From NCBI GenBank assembly GCA_002798295.1, contig NWQT01000015.1, positions 1 through 64,000 of the forward strand: a DNA stretch of 64,000 nucleotides, given 5' to 3'. Under the pieces are notes generated by a model. The model was given only the letters and a program-made list of their open reading frames with translations. It did not search any database and was not told the origin of the DNA. The stretch is from Lysobacteraceae bacterium NML07-0707. Lineage in GTDB: Bacteria; Pseudomonadota; Gammaproteobacteria; Xanthomonadales; Xanthomonadaceae. A program made the translations under genes and the position numbers. This document shows positions 31,339 to 40,329 of the stretch, piece by piece (the first letter of the stretch is position 1; each line of letters opens with the position of its first letter).

Positions 31339-31950
31339 TCAGGACTTCCGGCCACTGGCAAGCACATCCAGCAATTGCGCGGCCTCGTGCTCCATCTCGA
31401 CGATATAGCCGTTGATGCGTCCTTTGAAATAGCGGTGGAACATTAATGCCGGAATCGCCACGATCATGCCGGTGGCCGCACATACCAGCGCCTTGCCGAT
31501 GCCGCCTGCCAGCTGGTTGACATCCCCCACGCCGTGATCGCCAATCACCAAGAACATCTGGATCATGCCCACCACGGTGCCAAATAGTCCCAGCAAAGGG
31601 CCGGCCGAGGCAATGCTGCCCAGGGTGTTGAGATATTTTTCCATGCGGTGCACGATGCGCCGGCCGGTATCTTCCACGCGCTCGCGGATGATTTCGCGCG
31701 GCTGCTGGCGGGCATCCAGTGCTGCGGCCAGCAACTCGCCCAGCGGTGATGTGGCGCGCAGCGACTCGATATGCGGCTGCTCCATCTGCCCACGCTTGGC
31801 CCAGTTGCGCACTTCATCGCCCAGCCCCTGCGGCAAGACTTCGGAGCGGCGCAATGTCCAGAAACGCTCGGCGATGATGGCGATGGCGACCAGGGTCAAC
31901 AACAGCAGGGGAATCATCGGCCAACCACCGGCCTTTACCAGTTCAATCAT
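31339..31950 (-). CDS. exbB: ExbB/TolQ/MotA-family proton channel protein
   Basis: A 203-residue inner-membrane protein with an N-terminal segment (PMIPLLLLTLVAIAIIAERF) and the family core LNTLGSIASAGPLLGLFGTV ... GGIGKALVCAATGMIVAIPA. It assembles into the proton channel that drives ExbD. The start at 31950 (MIELVKAGGW) matches the family; the longer frame upstream is unlikely. It is divergent from the HSP90-like gene with 92 bases between, where GATAAT at 32015-32020 may be a -10 box for the plus-strand operon. Confidence 0.92.
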   Translation of the reverse strand: MIELVKAGGWPMIPLLLLTLVAIAIIAERFWTLRRSEVLPQGLGDEVRNWAKRGQMEQPHIESLRATSPLGELLAAALDARQQPREIIRERVEDTGRRIVHRMEKYLNTLGSIASAGPLLGLFGTVVGMIQMFLVIGDHGVGDVNQLAGGIGKALVCAATGMIVAIPALMFHRYFKGRINGYIVEMEHEAAQLLDVLASGRKS

Positions 31951-32042
31951 GAGCTTGTCAGGGTATGGGTCAAGTCGGGCATAAGCATAACTGATACGGC
32001 GCGGGCGCTTGAGCGATAATTGCAAGCCCTTTTTCGACCCCC

Positions 32043-33926
32043 ATGCCCGTGAGCCATTCCGATTTTCCCGCCACCGCGTCGATTCACCGCGCCGGGGTGG
32101 ACATGGGCGGACTGATGTCCGTCCTCAGCAAGCACCTGTACTCCACACCGATGGTCGCGCTGCGCGAGCTGGTGCAGAACGCCCATGACTCCATCCTGCG
32201 CCGCAGGCTGGAAGAGTCTGGCTGGACAGCACCGGCACGCATCGACATCCTGCCCGATGCCGCCGCCAACATACTGCGCATCATCGACACCGGCGCCGGG
32301 CTGACTGAAGACGAAATCCACCAATATCTCGCCACCGTCGGCGTGGGCTATACCCGCCGCCTGCGTGAGGGCGGTCATGAGGAAAGCGGGCTGATTGGCA
32401 TGTTTGGCCTGGGCTTTTTGTCGGCCTTTGTGCTTGCCAAGCGCGTCACCGTGCGTACCACCTCATGGCAAAGCCCCGACAGCGGCTGCCGTTATGTCTC
32501 CAGCAATGCCGAACAATACAGCGTGGCGGCGATGCCCGCGCGCGCAGTCGGCACGGAAATCGTGCTGGAGCTCAAAGACGAATATCACGCGCTGACTCAA
32601 CCCGTACATCTGCACGAGATTCTTGGCCATTACTGCGCCCTGCTTTCCGAGCCGATTCATATCGCAGGTGAAACTGAAGCCATCAATCCCGAGCCGCCGC
32701 CATGGCGCAGGCCAGCCGATGCCCCGGCCTTGCTGCCGCTACAGCAGCGCAAGCTGGAGCATGCCTTTGCCGCGCGCTTCGAGCACAGCTTCGAGCCGGT
32801 ATGCACCCTGCCGGTCAAACCCGATGGGCAAAGCGATGCCATCGGCATTTTGTGGGTGCAGGATGGCGCCACCTATGGCACCAGCGACAACCGCAATCTG
32901 TCGGTATTCCTGCGCGGCATGTTGCTCGACGATGATGCCCGCGACCTGCTGCCGCACTGGGCAGGCTTCATCGGTGGCGTCATCGAATCGCAGCGCCTGA
33001 CCCCCACCGCCAGCCGCGAGGATTTGCAGCGCGACGAGGCCTACGAGGCCACCCGCCATGCACTGACCGAGGCGCTGATTGCCGGCCTGGCCGAAGTCGC
33101 CCGAAGCCAGCCCGAAGCCTGGCGACGGGTACTGTGGCGGCATAACGAAGCCTTGCTGGGCGCGGCGCTGTGTGACGAGCGCCTGTTCGAGCTGCTCAAG
33201 GACAATCTGCGCATCCCCACCTCGCACGGCGACTTGCCGGCCAGCGAACTGCTGGCGCGTGGCGCAGTGCATGTGATGCTGGATCACAAGGCCGGATTTG
33301 AAGGCATGCTGTTCAATACCCTCGGCATTCCGGTGGCGCATGGCAACCGCTATGCAGTGGTGCCGTTCCTGCGCCGCTGGGCCGAGGCGCGCGGCGTGCG
33401 TCTGGCCGAGCTGGGCACCGATGCCGGCAACCGGCAACTGTTCCGCCCAGCGCCCTTGTCCAGCGAAAAACAGGACTGGCTGAACCAGCATCTGGGCGAT
33501 GGCGAAGAACTCATCGCCGCACATTTTGCCCCGCAGGAGCTGCCGCTGGTGGTGGTGCCCGACCGCGACAGCGCGCTCAAAAAGCGGCTGGAAGAAGACA
33601 ATCACGACAAACAAGTCTCGCTGGCGGCACTGCGCCTTGCGCGGCAATTCACCGCCCAAATCGACGATCGCCATCCGGCGCGGCTTTATCTGAATCTGGA
33701 CAACCCGGCGGTGCAATCCCTGCTTGCGGCCATCGACCACCAGCCCAGCCAGGCCGCCACCGCCGCCGCCCTGCTGCGCGCATTCAAAACCATTCTTGCC
33801 AGCAACACCCCCGGCAACGCCAATGCGGCGCAATCACGCGAAAAGCTCAGCGCCGCCCTGCACCAGCTGGCCGACAGCATCCAGCAACTCACCCGCCACA
33901 ATCCCCAGGAGCAATCCCAGGCATGA
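32043..33926 (+). CDS. Divergent HSP90/HtpG-like ATPase
   Basis: A 627-residue protein, close to E. coli HtpG in length. The GHKL ATPase domain is well kept: ELVQNAHDS (catalytic E42, N46, D49), the D82-T-G-A-G motif, a TVGVGYTRR lid segment and GMFGLGFLSAFVLAKRVTVR. The middle domain has GVIESQRLTPTASREDLQRD, matching the HSP90 arginine region. The C-terminal part is poorly conserved. It is probably an HSP90-family chaperone specialised for a partner, since the next gene overlaps it (ATGA) and encodes a large helical-repeat protein. No ribosome site is visible before the ATG. Confidence 0.88.
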   Translation: MPVSHSDFPATASIHRAGVDMGGLMSVLSKHLYSTPMVALRELVQNAHDSILRRRLEESGWTAPARIDILPDAAANILRIIDTGAGLTEDEIHQYLATVGVGYTRRLREGGHEESGLIGMFGLGFLSAFVLAKRVTVRTTSWQSPDSGCRYVSSNAEQYSVAAMPARAVGTEIVLELKDEYHALTQPVHLHEILGHYCALLSEPIHIAGETEAINPEPPPWRRPADAPALLPLQQRKLEHAFAARFEHSFEPVCTLPVKPDGQSDAIGILWVQDGATYGTSDNRNLSVFLRGMLLDDDARDLLPHWAGFIGGVIESQRLTPTASREDLQRDEAYEATRHALTEALIAGLAEVARSQPEAWRRVLWRHNEALLGAALCDERLFELLKDNLRIPTSHGDLPASELLARGAVHVMLDHKAGFEGMLFNTLGIPVAHGNRYAVVPFLRRWAEARGVRLAELGTDAGNRQLFRPAPLSSEKQDWLNQHLGDGEELIAAHFAPQELPLVVVPDRDSALKKRLEEDNHDKQVSLAALRLARQFTAQIDDRHPARLYLNLDNPAVQSLLAAIDHQPSQAATAAALLRAFKTILASNTPGNANAAQSREKLSAALHQLADSIQQLTRHNPQEQSQA

Positions 33927-36220
33927 ATATCTGGCATTGGATGGAAAAGCTGCAGCAAGACCTCGCCCATGCAGGTCAGGCGCACAGTGCCCAGCTGATT
34001 GATGATTTCAGCAGCGAAGTCTGCGACCTGCAGGTCGAACGCGCCGAAGCGCTGCTGCCGGAAGCCAAAGCCCTGGCGCGCACGCTGGAAAATCCCTGGC
34101 TGGAAGTGTTCATCGGCCACTGGGAAATGCGCAACCGCCTTGGCAACAAGGGCGAAGGCGAAAGCGCCCTGGCCGATGCCGTGGCGCTGTTTGAGCGCGC
34201 ACACCGCAGCGACACCCATGAATGCCCGCAGTCGGTGTGTATCACCCAGGACCTGTCCGCCTGCTATGCCAATATCGACGGCCCCGGCTGGGCGGCCGAG
34301 CGCATCGAAGTCTGCGATGAAACGCTTGCCCGCATCACCCCCAAATGGGGCTGCTTCCAGTGCATCTCCATTGAAAAGAGCGAGGCGCTGCTCGACCTCG
34401 GACAGGCCCAAGCCGCTTACGACTATCTCGAACAGCAAACCCGCGCCATCGAGGCTGCAGGCGAAGAAGTCAATGCCGGCATCACCGAGTTTCGCAACAA
34501 GCTGCTGCTGGCGCTGGGACGCTACCAGGAAGCGCTTGAGCATATCGCCAATGAAGAAGCCAAAGCCGATGGCGCCCCGGAATGGACCAATATCAAGCAG
34601 CCGCGCGATATTCTGAAAGCCCGCGCCCTGGCCGCACTGGGGCGTGACGACGCAGCCCTGGAGGCCTTGCCTGCATTGCGCGATATCCATCCCGGCACCC
34701 TGCACCGCTGGCTGAATGCCATCTTCCCGGTGTTGCTGCGTCGCCCGGAACTGAACAACTGGAGCCTCGGCAGCCGCCTGCAACACGGGCTGGACACCCT
34801 CGCCCGCCATGGCGCACATCGTCATCTGCTCGATATGGCCGCGCAGTGCATTGAACTGGCACTGGCACGCGGCGCGCTATGGACGGCCAGGCGACAAATG
34901 GCACAGGCGCGCCAGGCACACAGCAAACTGCGTGTGGATGGCGGTGCCGCGGCCAAACTCGATGCCCTGCAGGCGCGGATCGAGGCACAGGCAGCGATGC
35001 CGCTGCCCACCGCCCCGGAAAACCTGCTGCAATGGCTGGATGAACAAGATGCCGACAGCGCCCGCAACCCGGAGGCAGAAGTTGAATGGCTGCTGGCCGC
35101 ACTCGCCCAGCGCCCGGATGATTTGGCGCTGCTCAAGCAAAGCGTCGAAGCGCTGGCCGCCATCGGCGCCCCTGCCGAAGCCATTGACCTGCTCTGGCGC
35201 AATGTCCGCCAGAACACCGATAGCGAATATCTACCGGCCTACTTCCTGCTCGATCTGCTGCTGGACAATGGCCGCAGTGAGGAAGTCGAACCACTTGCCG
35301 AGCTTTATCAATCCGGCGCGCCCGGTGCCGCCTGCTGGATGCGCGCGCAATTGGCAAAACACAACCGCGACTGGACAGGGTGCGAGCTGCATTGCCGCAA
35401 GCTGCTGGCACACGCCCAACCCCCCATGTCACACGGTGCCAAGCGCCTGCTGGCGCAAAGCCTGATGCAGCAGCAACGCTTTGCCGACGCCGCCGCCACC
35501 TATGCCGAGCTTGCCAGGGACTTGCCCGAAGATGGCGCAGCGCACTGGGACTATCTCACCGCCGCCAGCGCCGCCCAGGACTGGCAGGGCGTGCGCCGCA
35601 TGGCCGACGCAATGGGCATGGCGCTGCCCGAAGGCGATGGCGCACCACAGATGCAGCTAGGCTGGGTACTGATTCGCAGCATCGAAAACGGCGAGCCCAT
35701 CGATTACTACGCCATGCGCTCAGGCCCCACCAATGCCCGCATCATGGAAAACGCCCCGCCACGCTTTCCCCAGCGCAGCGGCGACCAGGTGGCTTTTGAT
35801 GCCCAGCCCTTGTTCCCGCCGCCGCAGGACGACGAAGCACAGCAATACTTTGTGCCGACCTTCATGGCCGTGCATACCTTCCAGCCCGGCGGCCGCGCCC
35901 GCAGCCTCATCGTCGAAGGCCCAGACCCCGGCGATGAGGCCATTGAAGCACTACGCCAAACCCTGCAAGCGCAGGACGCACAACTCTGGGTACACCGCCG
36001 CGAAGACTACCAGCTTCACGACCAGGAAACCGGCGAAGCACTCCCCGGCATCCTGTTCACCGTAGCACCCCCGCAGGGCACCCCGGCCACCGAAATCGAC
36101 CGCCAACTGCGCCAGGCCACCGCCCACTGGCCAAGACCCGTCTGCTGGCTGGCGCTGGCCGAAGACGCCGGCGCCAACCCCGCCCCCCACCAGGCCATCA
36201 TCGACCGCTACGGGTTGTAA
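33923..36220 (+). CDS. Large TPR-like helical-repeat protein paired with the HSP90-like ATPase
   Basis: A 765-residue cytoplasmic protein without signal peptide or membrane segments. Residues about 1-560 form a chain of degenerate tetratricopeptide-type helix pairs (for example AEALLPEAKALARTLENPWL, LLLALGRYQEALEHIANEEA, RLLAQSLMQQQRFADAAATY). A distinct C-terminal domain from about residue 580 (VLIRSIENGEPIDYYAMRSG, HTFQPGGRARSLIVEG) looks like a separate fold that I do not recognise. TPR proteins are classic HSP90 co-chaperones in eukaryotes. The 4-base overlap suggests a similar partnership here; that is inference. Confidence 0.8.
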   Translation: MNIWHWMEKLQQDLAHAGQAHSAQLIDDFSSEVCDLQVERAEALLPEAKALARTLENPWLEVFIGHWEMRNRLGNKGEGESALADAVALFERAHRSDTHECPQSVCITQDLSACYANIDGPGWAAERIEVCDETLARITPKWGCFQCISIEKSEALLDLGQAQAAYDYLEQQTRAIEAAGEEVNAGITEFRNKLLLALGRYQEALEHIANEEAKADGAPEWTNIKQPRDILKARALAALGRDDAALEALPALRDIHPGTLHRWLNAIFPVLLRRPELNNWSLGSRLQHGLDTLARHGAHRHLLDMAAQCIELALARGALWTARRQMAQARQAHSKLRVDGGAAAKLDALQARIEAQAAMPLPTAPENLLQWLDEQDADSARNPEAEVEWLLAALAQRPDDLALLKQSVEALAAIGAPAEAIDLLWRNVRQNTDSEYLPAYFLLDLLLDNGRSEEVEPLAELYQSGAPGAACWMRAQLAKHNRDWTGCELHCRKLLAHAQPPMSHGAKRLLAQSLMQQQRFADAAATYAELARDLPEDGAAHWDYLTAASAAQDWQGVRRMADAMGMALPEGDGAPQMQLGWVLIRSIENGEPIDYYAMRSGPTNARIMENAPPRFPQRSGDQVAFDAQPLFPPPQDDEAQQYFVPTFMAVHTFQPGGRARSLIVEGPDPGDEAIEALRQTLQAQDAQLWVHRREDYQLHDQETGEALPGILFTVAPPQGTPATEIDRQLRQATAHWPRPVCWLALAEDAGANPAPHQAIIDRYGL

Positions 36221-36355: not shown

Positions 36356-37900
36356 TCAAAAATCACGCACCAGCAAATCTTTCGGCCAACTCACAGTGCT
36401 ATTGATGCTGAACTCTGCACGCTCACCAGCAACCAGCGTTTGTTGCCATTGAACAACGCCACTTTGCTTTTGCCAGTTTTGCTGGGCAGGTTGCGGGCTG
36501 TAGTGATTTTCCACGCGGATTTGGTCGTTGACCGAATGCGGGGCAGCAGCCAGCACTTCAACCATCATCGGCATGCGGTGACGGTTTTCCACACTGAAGC
36601 TGCGCTCAATACGACGCTCAATGCGCCCGCCACCAAGACCCGCCACTCCGCGTCTGTCCTTGTCCGGGTTACGCCTCACCCGGATGTTCTCGTCAGGGCC
36701 GAAGGAAAGCGCCAGATCTTCACTATGGCTGCTGTGCTGCCATTGGCTATTGCCCACAAACGTGCCATCACGATACAACTGCAACTGGCCGCTCGGCCAA
36801 TTGCCATCCGGTGGTTTGACATAAGCCAACAGGTAAGCAGTTGCCTCATCCACCGGGCTAGTGCGTACCACCATGCGCGACTGAAGGGTTTGGGTATCCA
36901 GCACCATCGCCACTCGCTGCCCATTGGAGGGTATATCCAGCACTCTGGACGGATGGAACTCGGTATCAAAATCACCTTGGAAGACGCTGACATCAAACAA
37001 CGGCGCTGCGTTCCTTTCCATCGTCGGTGCAGGCGGCGCAGCTGGAGCAGGCGCTTGCGAAGCATAAGTGAGAGGTTCCGGCTCGTAGACGCTGAACTGC
37101 CAAGAAGAAGGCATACGCCCCCGGGTGACATGCCGTGGCTGCGAGGTAGACAGCACCAATCGCACACCTTTCCAGTCTTCACCCGTAGCCTGCGCTACCA
37201 ACGCCCGGCGCTCTATCTGCACTTCTCCGCTGCGGCTATCAAGCGAGGCGCGATAAGCCGGCGTCCACCCCGGGCCGACAACGCGATAACGCAAAGTGAC
37301 TTCGGCACGGCTACTTGCCGAAACGGCCGCTCTCACCAGAGTCACCATTGCTCCGGCACCGCCTTGTTGACGCTCACGCTCGGCCAACAGTGGACGCAGG
37401 GCTTGCTCAATAGCTTCTTGTTTCCGCTTGATGTCATGCTGGCGCAGCATGATATCCTGCCCGGTACGTTGTATTTGCATTGCGGTGGCGCTAATGGCGC
37501 CGGAATTGGCTCGGGTATTTTTCAGCATGTCGGCCACCAAACCAAGCGCGTTCAGCTCGGCAAGCAGTGTAGCTTGCTGGTCTTCCAATTCATGAATGCG
37601 ATCATCGGCTGCACCGGCAAGACACTGCGGATACAGCGCACGGGGCTCGGTACGCAAGGTGATTTCACCCACTTCCATCGGTACATCACCGCTTATCTGG
37701 ATGCTTTGCGCATCAAGCGCTGCCGGAAGGCAGGCAAAAACAATCTCATCTTTGCCCGCAGCCAAGTGCGCAACCCGGGTAACTTCAGCCATGCCGGGAA
37801 AAACCTTGACTTCGGTAATGCGCGAATTGGCGGCCTCGGTGGAAGTTGGCAAGATGGCAGTCAAGGCCAGCGGCAACAAGACAAGACGGGGCAGATACAT
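36356..37900 (-). CDS. MuiA-family exported protein (DUF4140/DUF4139)
   Basis: A 514-residue protein with a signal peptide (MYLPRLVLLPLALTAILPTSTEA). The N-terminal domain (RITEVKVFPGMAEVTRVAHL) and a coiled-coil centre (residues about 100-180) precede a beta-rich C-terminal domain with YRVVGPGWTPAYRASLDSRS and SFSVENRHRMPMMVEVL. This is the architecture of the mucoidy inhibitor MuiA family. The biochemical function is unknown. It stands alone, between the HSP90-like operon and comEC. Confidence 0.85.
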   Translation of the reverse strand: MYLPRLVLLPLALTAILPTSTEAANSRITEVKVFPGMAEVTRVAHLAAGKDEIVFACLPAALDAQSIQISGDVPMEVGEITLRTEPRALYPQCLAGAADDRIHELEDQQATLLAELNALGLVADMLKNTRANSGAISATAMQIQRTGQDIMLRQHDIKRKQEAIEQALRPLLAERERQQGGAGAMVTLVRAAVSASSRAEVTLRYRVVGPGWTPAYRASLDSRSGEVQIERRALVAQATGEDWKGVRLVLSTSQPRHVTRGRMPSSWQFSVYEPEPLTYASQAPAPAAPPAPTMERNAAPLFDVSVFQGDFDTEFHPSRVLDIPSNGQRVAMVLDTQTLQSRMVVRTSPVDEATAYLLAYVKPPDGNWPSGQLQLYRDGTFVGNSQWQHSSHSEDLALSFGPDENIRVRRNPDKDRRGVAGLGGGRIERRIERSFSVENRHRMPMMVEVLAAAPHSVNDQIRVENHYSPQPAQQNWQKQSGVVQWQQTLVAGERAEFSINSTVSWPKDLLVRDF

Positions 37901-37974: not shown

Positions 37975-40329
37975 TTATGGTGCATCCAGTTGTTCCAGTG
38001 TCACCGCATCCCAAAACCTGCGGCGACGGTGGCGCTCACCTTGCCAGCGGATGCCATCGGCACCAAGGCGCGCGTAAATTGCGCCGTGCGCAAAGCTGAC
38101 AGGCGTTTCCGTACCTTGTTGCTGCCAGCGCTGCAATACCACTTGCCGGGGGTGGCCGAAGCGGTTGCCATGTCCTGCTGAAACCAGTGCCAGTTGCGGA
38201 CGGGTTGCCTGCACAAAGGCGGGGCTGGATGAGCTGGCACTGCCATGATGCGGCACAGTCATGATGTCGGCCTGCAGTGCATCCGGCACGGTGCGTACAA
38301 GGCGCGCTTCAATCAGGCGGTCGATATCGCCGGTAAGAAGCACATTGCCGTATCGACTGTGCAGGAGCAGCACGCAACTGGACTGGTTTTTGAGATAGGG
38401 AAAATGCGCCACCGGATGCAGGAAATCAAACGCCACGTCATCGTGCTGCCAGTGGCTCTCCCGGGTGCAGTCGCGCGCACCGGCAAGCCCGGCACCGGGG
38501 GGCGCCCAGAGCAGGGCTTCGGGAAAGGCGGCCTGTACGGCTGACAAACCACCGGCATGGTCGGCATCGGCATGGCTGATGACGATGGCGGTGAGCCTGC
38601 GCACACCCAGTGCATACAGGGCTGGCAGTACCACGCTTTCACCGGCATTGAAGCCGCCCGGCGCGGCGGGGCCTGTGTCATACAAAAAATCATGTTGGCG
38701 GGTACGCAGCAAAATGGCCGTGCCCTGCCCGACTTCCAGCTGCACGATGTCGACTTCGCCCATTTCCGGTCGCGGCACCCAGGGCCAGAGCAGCGGCAGC
38801 AGTAAAACGCTCGCCAGCCATTTGCCCGGCACGCCGCGCGGCAGCATCAGCACGAATACACCAAGCAGTGCCAATGGCAAGGCAAACCATGCAGCTTCCG
38901 GCAACCTTGCCAATGCCCAGGGCGATGCGGCCATCTGCGCAAACAGCTGCCAGCTGGGCTCGAAAGCCTGCGCGGCCAGTGTCCAGAAAATCGAGCCACT
39001 CCCTGTTGACAGCATTTCCGCCAGCACCCCGAGAATCGACAACGGCACCACTACCAGGCTCCACCATGGCACTGCCAGCAGGTTGGCCAGCGGCCCTGCC
39101 AATGAGGCTTGCGCAAAAAACACCGCTGTCAGTGGCAAAAGCCCCAGTGTCGCCACCATTTGCGCCAGCAAAAACTGCCGGATATGCCCGGACTTGGCCG
39201 ATTGCAATACCCAGGCCAGCCATGCCACCCCGCCAAAGCTCAGCCAAAAACCCGGTTGCAAGATGGATAGCGGCTCCAGCAGCAACATCGCCGCCAGCGC
39301 CAGAGCCACGGATTGCGCGATATGGGTCTGCCTGCGCAGCAACATCGCCCCGGCTACGAATACGCTCATCAGCACGGTGCGCACCGTGGGCAGCGATGCG
39401 CCGGTCGCCAGCAAATAGGCAAAGGCCGCCGCACTTGCGGCCAGCAGCATCCAGATACGACGCGGGAACAGTCTGCCAAGCCCGGGCAGCAGCCAGCAGA
39501 TGACAAACATCAACCCGGCAGCAGCCAATCCAACCATGCCGACATGAAAGCCGGAAATGGCAATCAAATGGGTAAGACCTGTGGCGCGCAGCGTCTGCCA
39601 GTGGGCTTCTGACAGCCCGCGGGTATCGCCAATGGCGAGCGCTGCCACAAAGCGCGCACTGGTTTCAGGCGTGGCGGCGTTGATGCGGGCGGCCATTGCC
39701 TCGCGCCAGGCGAGAGTGCCCTTGCCCGATGCCAGCCGCCGGTTGCCTGCATCCTCGCGTACCGTGCCTTGGGCGGCGATGCCTTCCACCAGCATTTGCC
39801 GCTCGCTATCGAAACCACCGGGGTTACGCAGGCCACGCGGCCTTTTCAGGCGCACCTTGAACTGCCATGTTTCACCGCCGCGCAATTGATGGCGCGCGCC
39901 AGACGTTACCGCTTCATCTGGCCTGCCAAAGCCGTCATACCAGCTCAGACGCAGGCGCTTGCCACGTAGCCCGGCCGGCATGTCGGCGCTGTCGGCCACC
40001 TGGAAGTGAAAGCGGCTGCGACGCGCCTCATGCACCGGCAGGCTGATTATCTGGCCGCGAACCAGCATATCGCGGCCGTCCAGAGCAGCTGGCAGTTGCG
40101 CGCCAAGCCGCAGGCTGCCCTGCGCCATCAACAGTGCAAAGCCAAAAAGCAGCGCCCCCAACCAGCGACGTGCATCTTGCAACCACAGCCACAGCCCGGC
40201 ACCTGTCAGCAGCAAAACCACAATCACCCAGCCAGACGGCAAGGCTGGCAAGCGACTGGCAGCCAACATGCCCAGCAAGAGTGCGGCCACACTGGCCGGG
40301 GAAAGCAGCGGCGTCCTTGCCGCGCACAT
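37975..40329 (-). CDS. comEC: DNA internalisation competence protein ComEC/Rec2
   Basis: A 784-residue polytopic protein that forms the inner-membrane channel for DNA uptake. An N-terminal membrane and OB-like region is followed by the Competence domain (THLIAISGFHVGMVGLAAAG) and a C-terminal metallo-beta-lactamase domain (VISHADADHAGG, LLTGDID, VPHHGSASSSS). All parts appear intact, so the cell may be naturally transformable. It lies 2 bases downstream of lolD, in the same direction. Confidence 0.94.
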   Translation of the reverse strand: MCAARTPLLSPASVAALLLGMLAASRLPALPSGWVIVVLLLTGAGLWLWLQDARRWLGALLFGFALLMAQGSLRLGAQLPAALDGRDMLVRGQIISLPVHEARRSRFHFQVADSADMPAGLRGKRLRLSWYDGFGRPDEAVTSGARHQLRGGETWQFKVRLKRPRGLRNPGGFDSERQMLVEGIAAQGTVREDAGNRRLASGKGTLAWREAMAARINAATPETSARFVAALAIGDTRGLSEAHWQTLRATGLTHLIAISGFHVGMVGLAAAGLMFVICWLLPGLGRLFPRRIWMLLAASAAAFAYLLATGASLPTVRTVLMSVFVAGAMLLRRQTHIAQSVALALAAMLLLEPLSILQPGFWLSFGGVAWLAWVLQSAKSGHIRQFLLAQMVATLGLLPLTAVFFAQASLAGPLANLLAVPWWSLVVVPLSILGVLAEMLSTGSGSIFWTLAAQAFEPSWQLFAQMAASPWALARLPEAAWFALPLALLGVFVLMLPRGVPGKWLASVLLLPLLWPWVPRPEMGEVDIVQLEVGQGTAILLRTRQHDFLYDTGPAAPGGFNAGESVVLPALYALGVRRLTAIVISHADADHAGGLSAVQAAFPEALLWAPPGAGLAGARDCTRESHWQHDDVAFDFLHPVAHFPYLKNQSSCVLLLHSRYGNVLLTGDIDRLIEARLVRTVPDALQADIMTVPHHGSASSSSPAFVQATRPQLALVSAGHGNRFGHPRQVVLQRWQQQGTETPVSFAHGAIYARLGADGIRWQGERHRRRRFWDAVTLEQLDAP

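Follow-up and report, generated by a model that had tools for sequence, protein, structure and literature searches.

A gene for a divergent Hsp90-like ATPase and a gene for a helical-repeat partner lie side by side in the window (the whole 64,000-nucleotide stretch of Lysobacteraceae bacterium NML07-0707 DNA analysed here), and the linkage of the two genes is near-absolute. Because the partner gene nearly always stands beside the ATPase gene, the pair suggests that some bacteria possess a two-part Hsp90 chaperone of their own. The best explanation, to which a probability of roughly 0.6 is given, is an Hsp90 chaperone whose clients are selected or delivered by a TPR co-chaperone of its own.

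The gene pair and its surroundings

The two open reading frames have the lengths, strand and overlap claimed in a preliminary description of this DNA (627 and 765 aa, 4 nt shared; Table 1). Both are under purifying selection in comparisons with two congeners, with dN/dS values of ~0.05 and ~0.12 for the ATPase and ~0.15 and ~0.22 for the partner. The pair had also been said to interrupt an otherwise conserved envelope gene order, which was taken to suggest insertion. The interruption is borne out, as comEC and exbB are neighbours in all eight pairless congeners examined (8 of the 13 pairless members of the genus). Insertion between comEC and exbB, or else a clean loss in the other genomes, is supported as well. 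In G001 and G012, two of the four genomes that bear the pair, comEC was not found within the 6.3 and 7.4 kb examined past it. The DUF4139/DUF4140 gene, which in the window lies between the pair and comEC, was unmatched in the corresponding stretches of the eight pairless and three other pair-bearing congeners.

Table 1. Positions of the gene pair, its parts and its flanking genes in the window
Feature	Position	Strand	Remarks
HSP90-like ATPase gene (P0001)	32043..33926	+	627 aa; predicted Bergerat ATPase N-terminal, middle domain, divergent C-terminal domain
TPR-superhelix partner gene (P0002; fold predicted)	33923..36220	+	765 aa
ATGA overlap of partner start and HSP90-like gene stop	33923..33926	+	4 nt
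Catalytic E42/N46/D49 helix (RELVQNAHD)	32166..32189	+	motif in 46/46 intact homologues
Partner N-terminal solenoid (predicted), residues 1-361	33923..35005	+	
Partner cysteine cluster C101, C106, C114, C144, C147 (CPQxxC ... CFxC)	34223..34363	+	
Partner second solenoid (predicted), residues 363-563	35009..35611	+	conservation lower
Partner C-terminal alpha/beta domain (predicted), residues 580-765	35660..36217	+	
exbB/tolQ-type proton channel gene	31339..32025	-	divergent from pair; Pfam MotA_ExbB 5.7e-31
DUF4139/DUF4140 gene	36356..37900	-	convergent with pair
comEC	37975..40329	-	Pfam Competence 4.1e-53

The GC content of the pair (0.64) and its GC3 (0.74-0.76) are inside the range of the neighbouring genes; a composition signal is therefore absent, and the idea that the pair is recent foreign DNA was dropped. 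An upstream likeness to a heat-shock promoter (CTTGAG ... CCCCAT) was rejected as chance because its gap is 25 nt and it overlaps the start codon.

A divergent Hsp90 and its predicted TPR-type partner

The ATPase passes the Pfam models HSP90 (PF00183; 32.8 bits, cut-off 24.4) and HATPase_c_3 (31.3 bits, cut-off 25). The ATPase motifs previously described as intact are present at the residues named (E42, N46, D49, D82-T-G-A-G and GMFGLGF at 119-125), and all but T83 are invariant in a 20-row alignment of type A proteins, where type A denotes Hsp90s like the ATPase of the window and type B those of the PRK14083 type. In Hsp90, such residues, including the middle-domain arginine, serve in ATP binding and hydrolysis. 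More broadly, the four ATPase motifs (E/N/D helix, DxGAG, GxFGxGF and catalytic-arginine loop) and the C-terminal LYxNxxNP occur in 46 of 46 intact homologues, that is, the window and 45 of the 47 loci described below, with the broken L084 and L095 left out. The structural model of the ATPase (pLDDT 76.7, with some segments below 50) aligns in Foldseek over at least 600 columns to full-length Hsp90/TRAP1 chains with TM-scores mostly of 0.5-0.6, and the protein is predicted with moderate confidence to have the full-length Hsp90 fold of N-terminal, middle and C-terminal (dimerisation) domains.

This layout, the catalytic E/N/D and arginine loop and the Foldseek match along the full length are common to HtpG. 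The ATPase differs from HtpG, as had been claimed, in its score of 202.8 bits against NCBIfam HtpG (NF003555), which is below the equivalog cut-off of 371, in its separate group and in its pairing with a TPR gene. Its best family match is NF010683/PRK14083 at 283.6 bits (residues 15-590), also below the equivalog cut-off (455), and its identity to PRK14083-type Hsp90s is 22-28%. In the phylogeny against HtpG that had been proposed as a check, the 13 HtpG rows are set apart by a 100/100 branch and the 23 type A rows by another; type A, type B and HtpG form three groups, of which the tree, being unrooted and having long type B branches, does not give the nearest two. Because it falls below the family cut-off and in a separate group, the ATPase gene is, judged from its sequence, not htpG and belongs to a separate group of Hsp90s.

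The HtpG cut-off is reached in none of the 17 genomes of the genus, so by profile scores the ATPase of the pair is the sole Hsp90 found in the genome of the window. The pair is present in 4 of these 17 genomes and both genes are missing from the other 13 (three of which are less than 90% complete); the role of HtpG therefore looks dispensable in the genus. The preliminary description had held that an HSP90-like gene that was the only one in its genome and occurred mostly without the partner would speak against a dedicated module. It is indeed the only one there, but occurrence mostly without the partner was not found.

In the AF2 model of the partner (pLDDT 90.5), an all-helical solenoid runs to residue 563, and a separate alpha/beta domain comes after it. 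Pfam TPR models gave sub-threshold matches, none over its own cut-off, and the best PDB matches are mostly helical-repeat scaffolds known as TPR proteins. The partner is predicted with high confidence to form a superhelix of the TPR type, to which an alpha/beta domain is joined at the C terminus, much as had been proposed. Its N-terminal solenoid is near the TPR subunits of APC/C and MalT domain III (Z ~21-22 over ~325 residues), the matches of this solenoid include signalling TPR proteins (MalT domain III, Rap/NprR), and Tom70/71 is among the solenoid matches at Z ~14-15; the match rows of a second structural aligner scarcely reach the C-terminal domain. Solenoid fold matches are frequent among helical repeats and say nothing on function. 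The best PDB match of a five-row partner profile is the chaperedoxin CnoX/YbbN, a TPR chaperone (residues 386-462, E 0.0033); however, this match is weak and covers the TPR stretch only, and a thioredoxin domain was not seen among the matches of the partner.

The five cysteines of the partner are present in 31 of 31 rows (partner alignment A8), and all 46 intact homologues have the motifs CPQxxC and C[FY]xC. The N-terminal 120 residues are the best conserved, with 68% mean identity versus 43-51% in the rest, and short partner versions in Pseudomonas keep the N-terminal solenoid only. Proteins of ~325 aa that belong to the same family also contain the stretch ~530-629, which reaches into the C-terminal domain.

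Linkage across bacteria and the type B parallel

An ATPase homologue lies directly upstream on the same strand in 47 of 47 loci found with a partner profile, and the intergenic spacing is -4 to +122 nt in 46 of them, the 47th being a broken pair. When partner and ATPase were searched separately, a sample of 100 genomes of relatives yielded five full-length partners and five close ATPase homologues, adjacent and in the same genomes (close homologues score at least 890 bits, HtpG-like ones at most 121). A phylum sample (398 genomes) yielded five of each, again adjacent, and a class sample (369 genomes) five partners and four ATPases, the fifth ATPase being present but cut by a contig end. Shorter partial partner matches from other TPR-like proteins were excluded (8 of 13 genomes among the relatives, 13 of 18 in the phylum). 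Among 5,426 genomes of E. coli, 245 have both genes, all with matches over 80% or more of a query made of the two, and the site is empty in E. coli K-12. Every close ATPase homologue examined has the partner, or the beginning of the partner where the contig or record ends. A 14-kb X. vasicola plasmid record on which the ATPase seems to stand alone fits this rule too, because the record stops inside the start of the partner.

The pair is thus conserved as neighbours across Gamma- and Betaproteobacteria, and the dedicated two-gene module of the preliminary description holds up. A partner found mostly with other genes, which would have spoken against it, was not encountered, except that a distant relative of the partner in Nonomuraea, in which four of the five cysteines are missing, is without an ATPase match in the 6 kb searched. 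No third gene accompanying the pair in a comparable position was found in distant lineages among 15 loci, scanned for ORFs of at least 90 aa over ~7-10 kb each side at most, with contig ends shortening some loci. Beyond close relatives, the flanks matched only in generic ABC transporters and in two genes whose distances from the pair differed (Xanthomonas-Kosakonia and Stenotrophomonas-Zoogloeaceae). X. populi, X. axonopodis and E. coli SCU-115 have apparently broken copies, which together with its patchy presence show the pair to be dispensable.

PRK14083-type Hsp90s of Streptomyces, Listeria and Paenibacillus are also followed by a partner-family gene, in six of the six plasmid-collection records whose positions were compared. 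The two genes overlap by 4 nt in Paenibacillus, as they do in Streptomyces sp. BHT-5-2 provided that 5935 is the correct start, and a Listeria record has one Hsp90 gene and then two partner copies. TPR is over its Pfam cut-off in two of seven type B partners scanned and below it in four more; an Actinomyces oris plasmid also carries a type B partner, but its record is without an Hsp90 match. Besides the differences in ATPase score, identity and tree group given above, homology of the partners is not recognisable by BLAST, which returned scraps only, and the profile match is weak. Full-length partner profiles of types A and B match at prob 73, but in a different TPR stretch, whereas the N-terminal profiles match at prob 41 (E 2.8e-4) with their CxxC motifs aligned, which is only suggestive of a relationship between the two N-termini. 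The type B neighbours are mostly TPR-like and are perhaps remotely related to the partner of the window.

An orthologous pair in a P. aeruginosa record (69% and 51% identity), presumably PA1068-PA1069, differs in having bra/liv genes as flanks. PMC4053335 calls PA1069 apparently operonic with an Hsp90 gene, and the adjacency was already mentioned in passing in 2014. The PA1069 transcript is reported to be about four-fold down at high temperature while htpG is about seven-fold up; PA1069 is therefore not a simple heat-shock gene in P. aeruginosa, and the stress role that had been suggested for the pair is unproven. In PMC9995270, PA1068 is a strain name and not a gene. The literature search found neither a functional study of the P. 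aeruginosa pair nor a description of the pair as a system, and the abstract of PMC7688965 refers to bacteria as being without an orthologue of Hop.

Proposed function and alternative explanations

In the preferred reading, the ATPase would be a complete Hsp90 that dimerises and cycles with ATP like HtpG and TRAP1, and the partner would dock on it via its N-terminal solenoid, which is conserved and bears the cysteines. With its second solenoid and its C-terminal domain, which are missing in some lineages, the partner would choose or deliver a restricted set of clients, and would probably act on clients and not on ATPase timing alone. Eukaryotic Hsp90 depends on TPR co-chaperones, and the C-terminal (M)EEVD of the cytosolic form is the docking signal for their TPR carboxylate clamp. 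EEVD is at the C terminus of none of 46 ATPase homologues, one of which carries it internally. The likeness to Hop/Sti1 and FKBP52 (Tom70 being a related receptor) would lie in a TPR protein acting with Hsp90; the window pair differs in the missing EEVD tail, in the alpha/beta domain of the partner and in having its genes in one operon. As a statement about function, the analogy to eukaryotic TPR co-chaperones seems reasonable. To our knowledge, bacterial HtpG is generally described as working without TPR co-chaperones; we know of no dedicated co-chaperone of HtpG, and a literature search for one found none.

A wider proposal is more tentative, and we hold it to be possible rather than probable. 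The pair may represent an ancient second bacterial Hsp90 system in which a divergent Hsp90 is obligately paired with a cysteine-bearing TPR co-chaperone, in two related forms spread over Proteobacteria, Actinomycetota and Bacillota. In both forms the ~350-residue N-terminal domain of the partner would serve for docking and would hold a metal-binding or redox-sensing cysteine site; the remainder would be exchangeable.

Strict one-to-one linkage with the chaperone gene first is also consistent with a TPR protein that is itself the client, the ATPase being the dedicated folding factor for one difficult repeat protein that does the cellular work as a signalling or scaffold protein. The resemblance of the N-terminal solenoid to signalling TPR proteins points the same way, as does the faster evolution of the partner (dN 0.025 vs 0.007 and 0.099 vs 0.043 for partner and ATPase against two congeners). 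This is nevertheless unlikely, since the uneven conservation of the partner, highest at its N terminus, fits a docking face, and two partner copies stand behind one Hsp90 gene in Listeria. Least probable of all is an ordinary HtpG paralogue with a passenger neighbour, the adjacency being inherited and not functional. As the only Hsp90 in the genus of the window, the ATPase could simply fill the HtpG role; yet the adjacency persists across two proteobacterial classes although the surrounding genes change, type B Hsp90s have a paired gene as well, most of the genus does without both genes, and a fully supported branch splits off HtpG.

The preliminary description had further raised a defence role, and an anti-phage or other conflict module made of a GHKL ATPase and a TPR sensor would suit the patchy distribution in the genus and in E. 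coli and the broken copies. Weak PADLOC matches of the ATPase domain to the REase_II and TmtA models, and toxin-antitoxin-type genes ~10 kb off in E. coli SE15 and ~3 kb off in Salmonella, agree with it, but PADLOC gives no match for the partner up to an E of 1, and the immediate neighbours at the loci read are metabolic, envelope or regulatory genes. Among the annotated loci read, a TIR gene adjoins only that of Pseudanabaena, whose ATPase is distant. Copies filed in plasmid records (a conjugative 847-kb P. aeruginosa record and two small X. vasicola records) would suit a conflict module too, but they sit there among chromosome-typical genes (cyo, radA, bra/liv, flg). A scan of viral_contigs with two peptide patterns found no relative. 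The one hit labelled 'phage' is a contig from a Salmonella whole genome and carries fdo and rha genes. With an ATPase that appears to be a complete three-domain Hsp90, the evidence for defence is so far weak, and we consider such a role improbable.

A two-part Hsp90 chaperone is otherwise known from animals, plants and fungi. If the wider proposal of an ancient second system is true, the Hsp90-TPR partnership would not be a eukaryotic invention: it would have originated in bacteria, and with another mode of docking. A bacterial Hsp90 that has a TPR partner of its own would make the choice of clients by co-chaperones accessible in a simple two-protein system, and natural strains with the pair in place of HtpG are on offer. 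Proteins that now go under the labels 'ATP-binding protein', 'HSP90 family protein' or 'hypothetical protein' would gain a role that can be tested.

The ATPase and its place among Hsp90 proteins

The window's ATPase (P0001) is an Hsp90, a conclusion based on Pfam cut-offs, phmmer and its predicted model. The Pfam families HSP90 and HATPase_c_3 both score above cut-off, phmmer matches HtpG, TRAP1 and Hsp90 structures over residues ~13-402, and the model (pLDDT 76.7, with weak segments) aligns in Foldseek with full-length Hsp90 and TRAP1 chains at TM-scores of mostly 0.5-0.6. The HtpG family score of 203 bits does not reach the cut-off of 371; PRK14083 is the best-scoring family at 284 bits, yet this lies under its cut-off of 455. 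The ATPase motifs and a C-terminal LYxNxxNP motif occur in 46 of 46 intact homologues, comprising the window and 45 of 47 loci, the two broken loci being left out. Mean identity of the homologues to the window is 70% in the middle domain, 67% in the ATPase domain and 53% in the C-terminal part; the middle domain is thus conserved about equally to the ATPase domain and the C-terminal part less.

Coordinates of the features discussed in the text
Feature	Location	Strand	Remark
P0001, Hsp90-like ATPase gene, 627 aa	window 32043-33926	+	ORF
P0002, TPR-type partner gene, 765 aa	window 33923-36220	+	ORF; overlaps the P0001 gene by 4 nt
Five-cysteine cluster of P0002	window 34223-34363		
DUF4139/DUF4140 gene	window 36356-37900		between pair and comEC
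Regulator gene, Xanthomonas G033	L048 11827-13353		upstream of pair, same strand as pair
Listeria PRK14083 Hsp90 locus	L129 3151-7778		
Pseudanabaena plasmid locus	L125 5207-10789		

A second form of such a pair (type B) was found in the plasmid collection, where a PRK14083-type Hsp90 appears at E <= 1e-40 in six records (three Streptomyces, two Listeria and one Paenibacillus), with a partner gene of another family immediately adjacent in all six. An overlap of 4 nt joins the two genes in Paenibacillus; the same applies to Streptomyces sp. BHT-5-2 if its start is so read. On an Actinomyces oris plasmid, the seventh record, a type B partner occurs with no Hsp90 on the plasmid record itself. Among seven type B partners scanned (320 to 1,055 aa), TPR matches were over the Pfam cut-off in two, below it in four and lacking in the one from Paenibacillus; those of Streptomyces lie in the C-terminal part. 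In Listeria, the PRK14083 Hsp90 stands beside fri and is followed by two partner genes in tandem, of 324 and 320 aa, and by an SMI1/KNR4 gene.

The preliminary description had held that P0001 differs strongly from housekeeping HtpG, and the phylogeny agrees: HtpG (13 rows), the P0001-like type A Hsp90s (23) and type B (5) form three separate groups with supports of 100/100, 100/100 and 100/99. Because the tree is unrooted and does not give the nearest two of these groups, the link between type A and type B Hsp90s rests on family scores and an end-to-end alignment at 22-28% identity.

The TPR-type partner

No family model reaches its own cut-off in the partner P0002, and a PDB search with the single sequence returned no match. 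A five-row profile gave weak matches to TPR stretches, the best being a chaperedoxin (E 0.0033). The predicted model (pLDDT 90.5), built from an alignment of 31 rows, shows a helical solenoid through residue 563 followed by an alpha/beta domain from residue 580. Most of its PDB fold matches are scaffolds that we take to be TPR proteins. With a second structural aligner, the nearest matches of the N-terminal 357 residues are APC/C subunits and MalT domain III (Z ~21-22), and Rap/NprR and Tom70/71 rank lower; such solenoid matches are frequent among repeat proteins and are evidence of fold only. A family of ~325-aa proteins from the window's family and order (L007-L014) has a few TPR-like repeats and a domain resembling P0002 residues ~530-629, to which no Pfam name was assigned in the one protein scanned.

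Residues 1-120 are the most conserved (68% identity vs 43-51% elsewhere), and in Pseudomonas loci L090-L093 the partner is reduced to its first ~362 residues. Within this protein's first fifth, five cysteines (CPQxxC ... C ... CFxC) are invariant in 31 of 31 aligned rows and could form a metal or redox site within the solenoid. In type B partners a CxxC and a later cysteine are common to all seven aligned rows. BLAST detected no relationship between type A and type B partners; their N-terminal profiles align weakly (probability 41, E 2.8e-4) with the CxxC motifs in register.

Linkage and genomic surroundings of the two genes

The two genes constitute a module, as the preliminary description had proposed. 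A scan of a species-genome collection with two peptide patterns from the partner profile, and hence anchored on the partner, yielded 47 loci spanning Lysobacteraceae, Xanthomonas, Stenotrophomonas, Betaproteobacteria, Escherichia, Phytobacter, Kosakonia, Pseudomonas and MAGs. An ATPase homologue lies directly upstream of the partner in 47 of 47. For 46 of these the spacing is between -4 and +122 nt; the other is a broken pair. Because of the anchoring, each gene was also searched independently in 100 relatives, 398 phylum genomes and 369 class genomes. Partner and close ATPase homologue were found in the same genomes, numbering 5 and 5, 5 and 5, and 5 and 4; for the missing class-set ATPase a contig end cuts the gene, residues 357-600 being present. 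Partial matches from other proteins were excluded as partners (8 of 13 matching genomes among relatives, 13 of 18 in the phylum), and over the three samples the pair is present in 12 different genomes. A Nonomuraea homologue of the type A partner (29%) is an exception with no ATPase match within 6 kb, and is without four of the five cysteines.

Apparently broken copies in X. axonopodis, X. populi (draft contigs) and E. coli SCU-115 (L084, L095, L097) indicate that the module can be lost; SCU-115, among the listed E. coli strains with the pair, has a frameshift in the partner. With 80% or more of the two-gene query covered in each, the pair occurs in 245 of 5,426 E. coli genomes, at a single chromosomal site in each. 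In strain SE15 it sits between fdhD and yiiG, where K-12 MG1655 has 152 nt; Salmonella shares the fdhD/yiiG context, with other genes in between. The P. aeruginosa pair, which we take to be PA1068-PA1069 (PA1069 being the partner), lies among bra/liv genes, and the gene downstream of the pair in two Pseudomonas loci is presumably guaA from our reading of the protein. In Xanthomonas G033 the gene upstream of the pair seems to encode an AraC-type regulator whose N-terminal part is helical, and the equivalent position in X. vasicola is occupied by a gene for a helix-turn-helix regulator.

That the pair interrupts a conserved envelope gene order was upheld insofar as comEC stands next to exbB in all 8 pairless genomes fetched from the window's genus; insertion of the pair fits this arrangement, but so does loss elsewhere. 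Nothing but the pair separates comEC and exbB in congener G009; in the window the pair and the DUF4139 gene lie between them, and comEC was not found in the 6.3 and 7.4 kb fetched for congeners G001 and G012. The DUF4139/DUF4140 gene has a GC3 of 0.59, vs 0.70-0.78 in the measured surrounding genes, and was unmatched in stretches fetched from 11 congeners.

Function, rival explanations and relation to HtpG

We interpret the pair as a bacterial Hsp90 with a TPR partner. The partner's conservation pattern, the short Pseudomonas forms and the invariant cysteines suggest that its N-terminal solenoid would dock on the ATPase and that the remainder may be the client or effector side. Eukaryotic Hsp90 carries an EEVD docking tail, whereas this tail is absent from the C terminus of 46 of 46 type A homologues; if ATPase and partner bind, the binding mode therefore differs from the eukaryotic one.

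Excerpts of published P. aeruginosa studies describe a heat-shock change of PA1069 from 7.5 to 1.9 and of htpG from 8.6 to 61 (PMC4957987), PA1069 as absent from efhP mutants or present at lower levels there when calcium is high, and as a protein whose induction by calcium and/or biofilm growth had been seen before (PMC4053335), its place among proteins changing upon surface attachment (PMC5541441) and its co-purification with BatR (PMC13411936). That PA1069 adjoins the Hsp90 gene was noted in 2014, the arrangement being called apparently operonic (PMC4053335).

The strongest rival to this interpretation is a chaperone with a single client. A defence module, also raised in the preliminary description, is unlikely, although the patchy distribution, the broken copies and the copies in records filed as plasmids speak for it; P0002 is without a family match at cut-off, and the contexts read include fdhD/yiiG and bra/liv. 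It is also unlikely that the partner gene is a passenger neighbour of the ATPase gene, given the ATPase upstream in 47 of 47 loci, the pairing of the type B Hsp90s and an all-against-all ORF comparison around 15 loci, in which no third gene was seen to travel with the pair and, beyond close relatives, the only matches were generic ABC transporters and two genes whose distances differ between loci. A Pseudanabaena plasmid carries a distant Hsp90-like ATPase (877 aa) adjoining a TIR-domain gene with a TPR gene near, and in contrast to the window's pair is possibly a real defence locus.

A second, canonical htpG was sought in the window's own genome and not found, P0001 being the sole HSP90-family match. 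None of 17 genus genomes reaches the HtpG-model cut-off; the strong sub-threshold matches in four are the pair's ATPase, and one further genome has a weak match (5e-5). Outside the genus, most relatives show an Hsp90 match. Because 13 genus genomes (three of them < 90% complete) are without both Hsp90s, and Xanthomonas G033 possesses the pair together with another Hsp90 scoring in the range of HtpG-like ones, the pair does not invariably accompany HtpG, nor does it have to be present where HtpG is missing.
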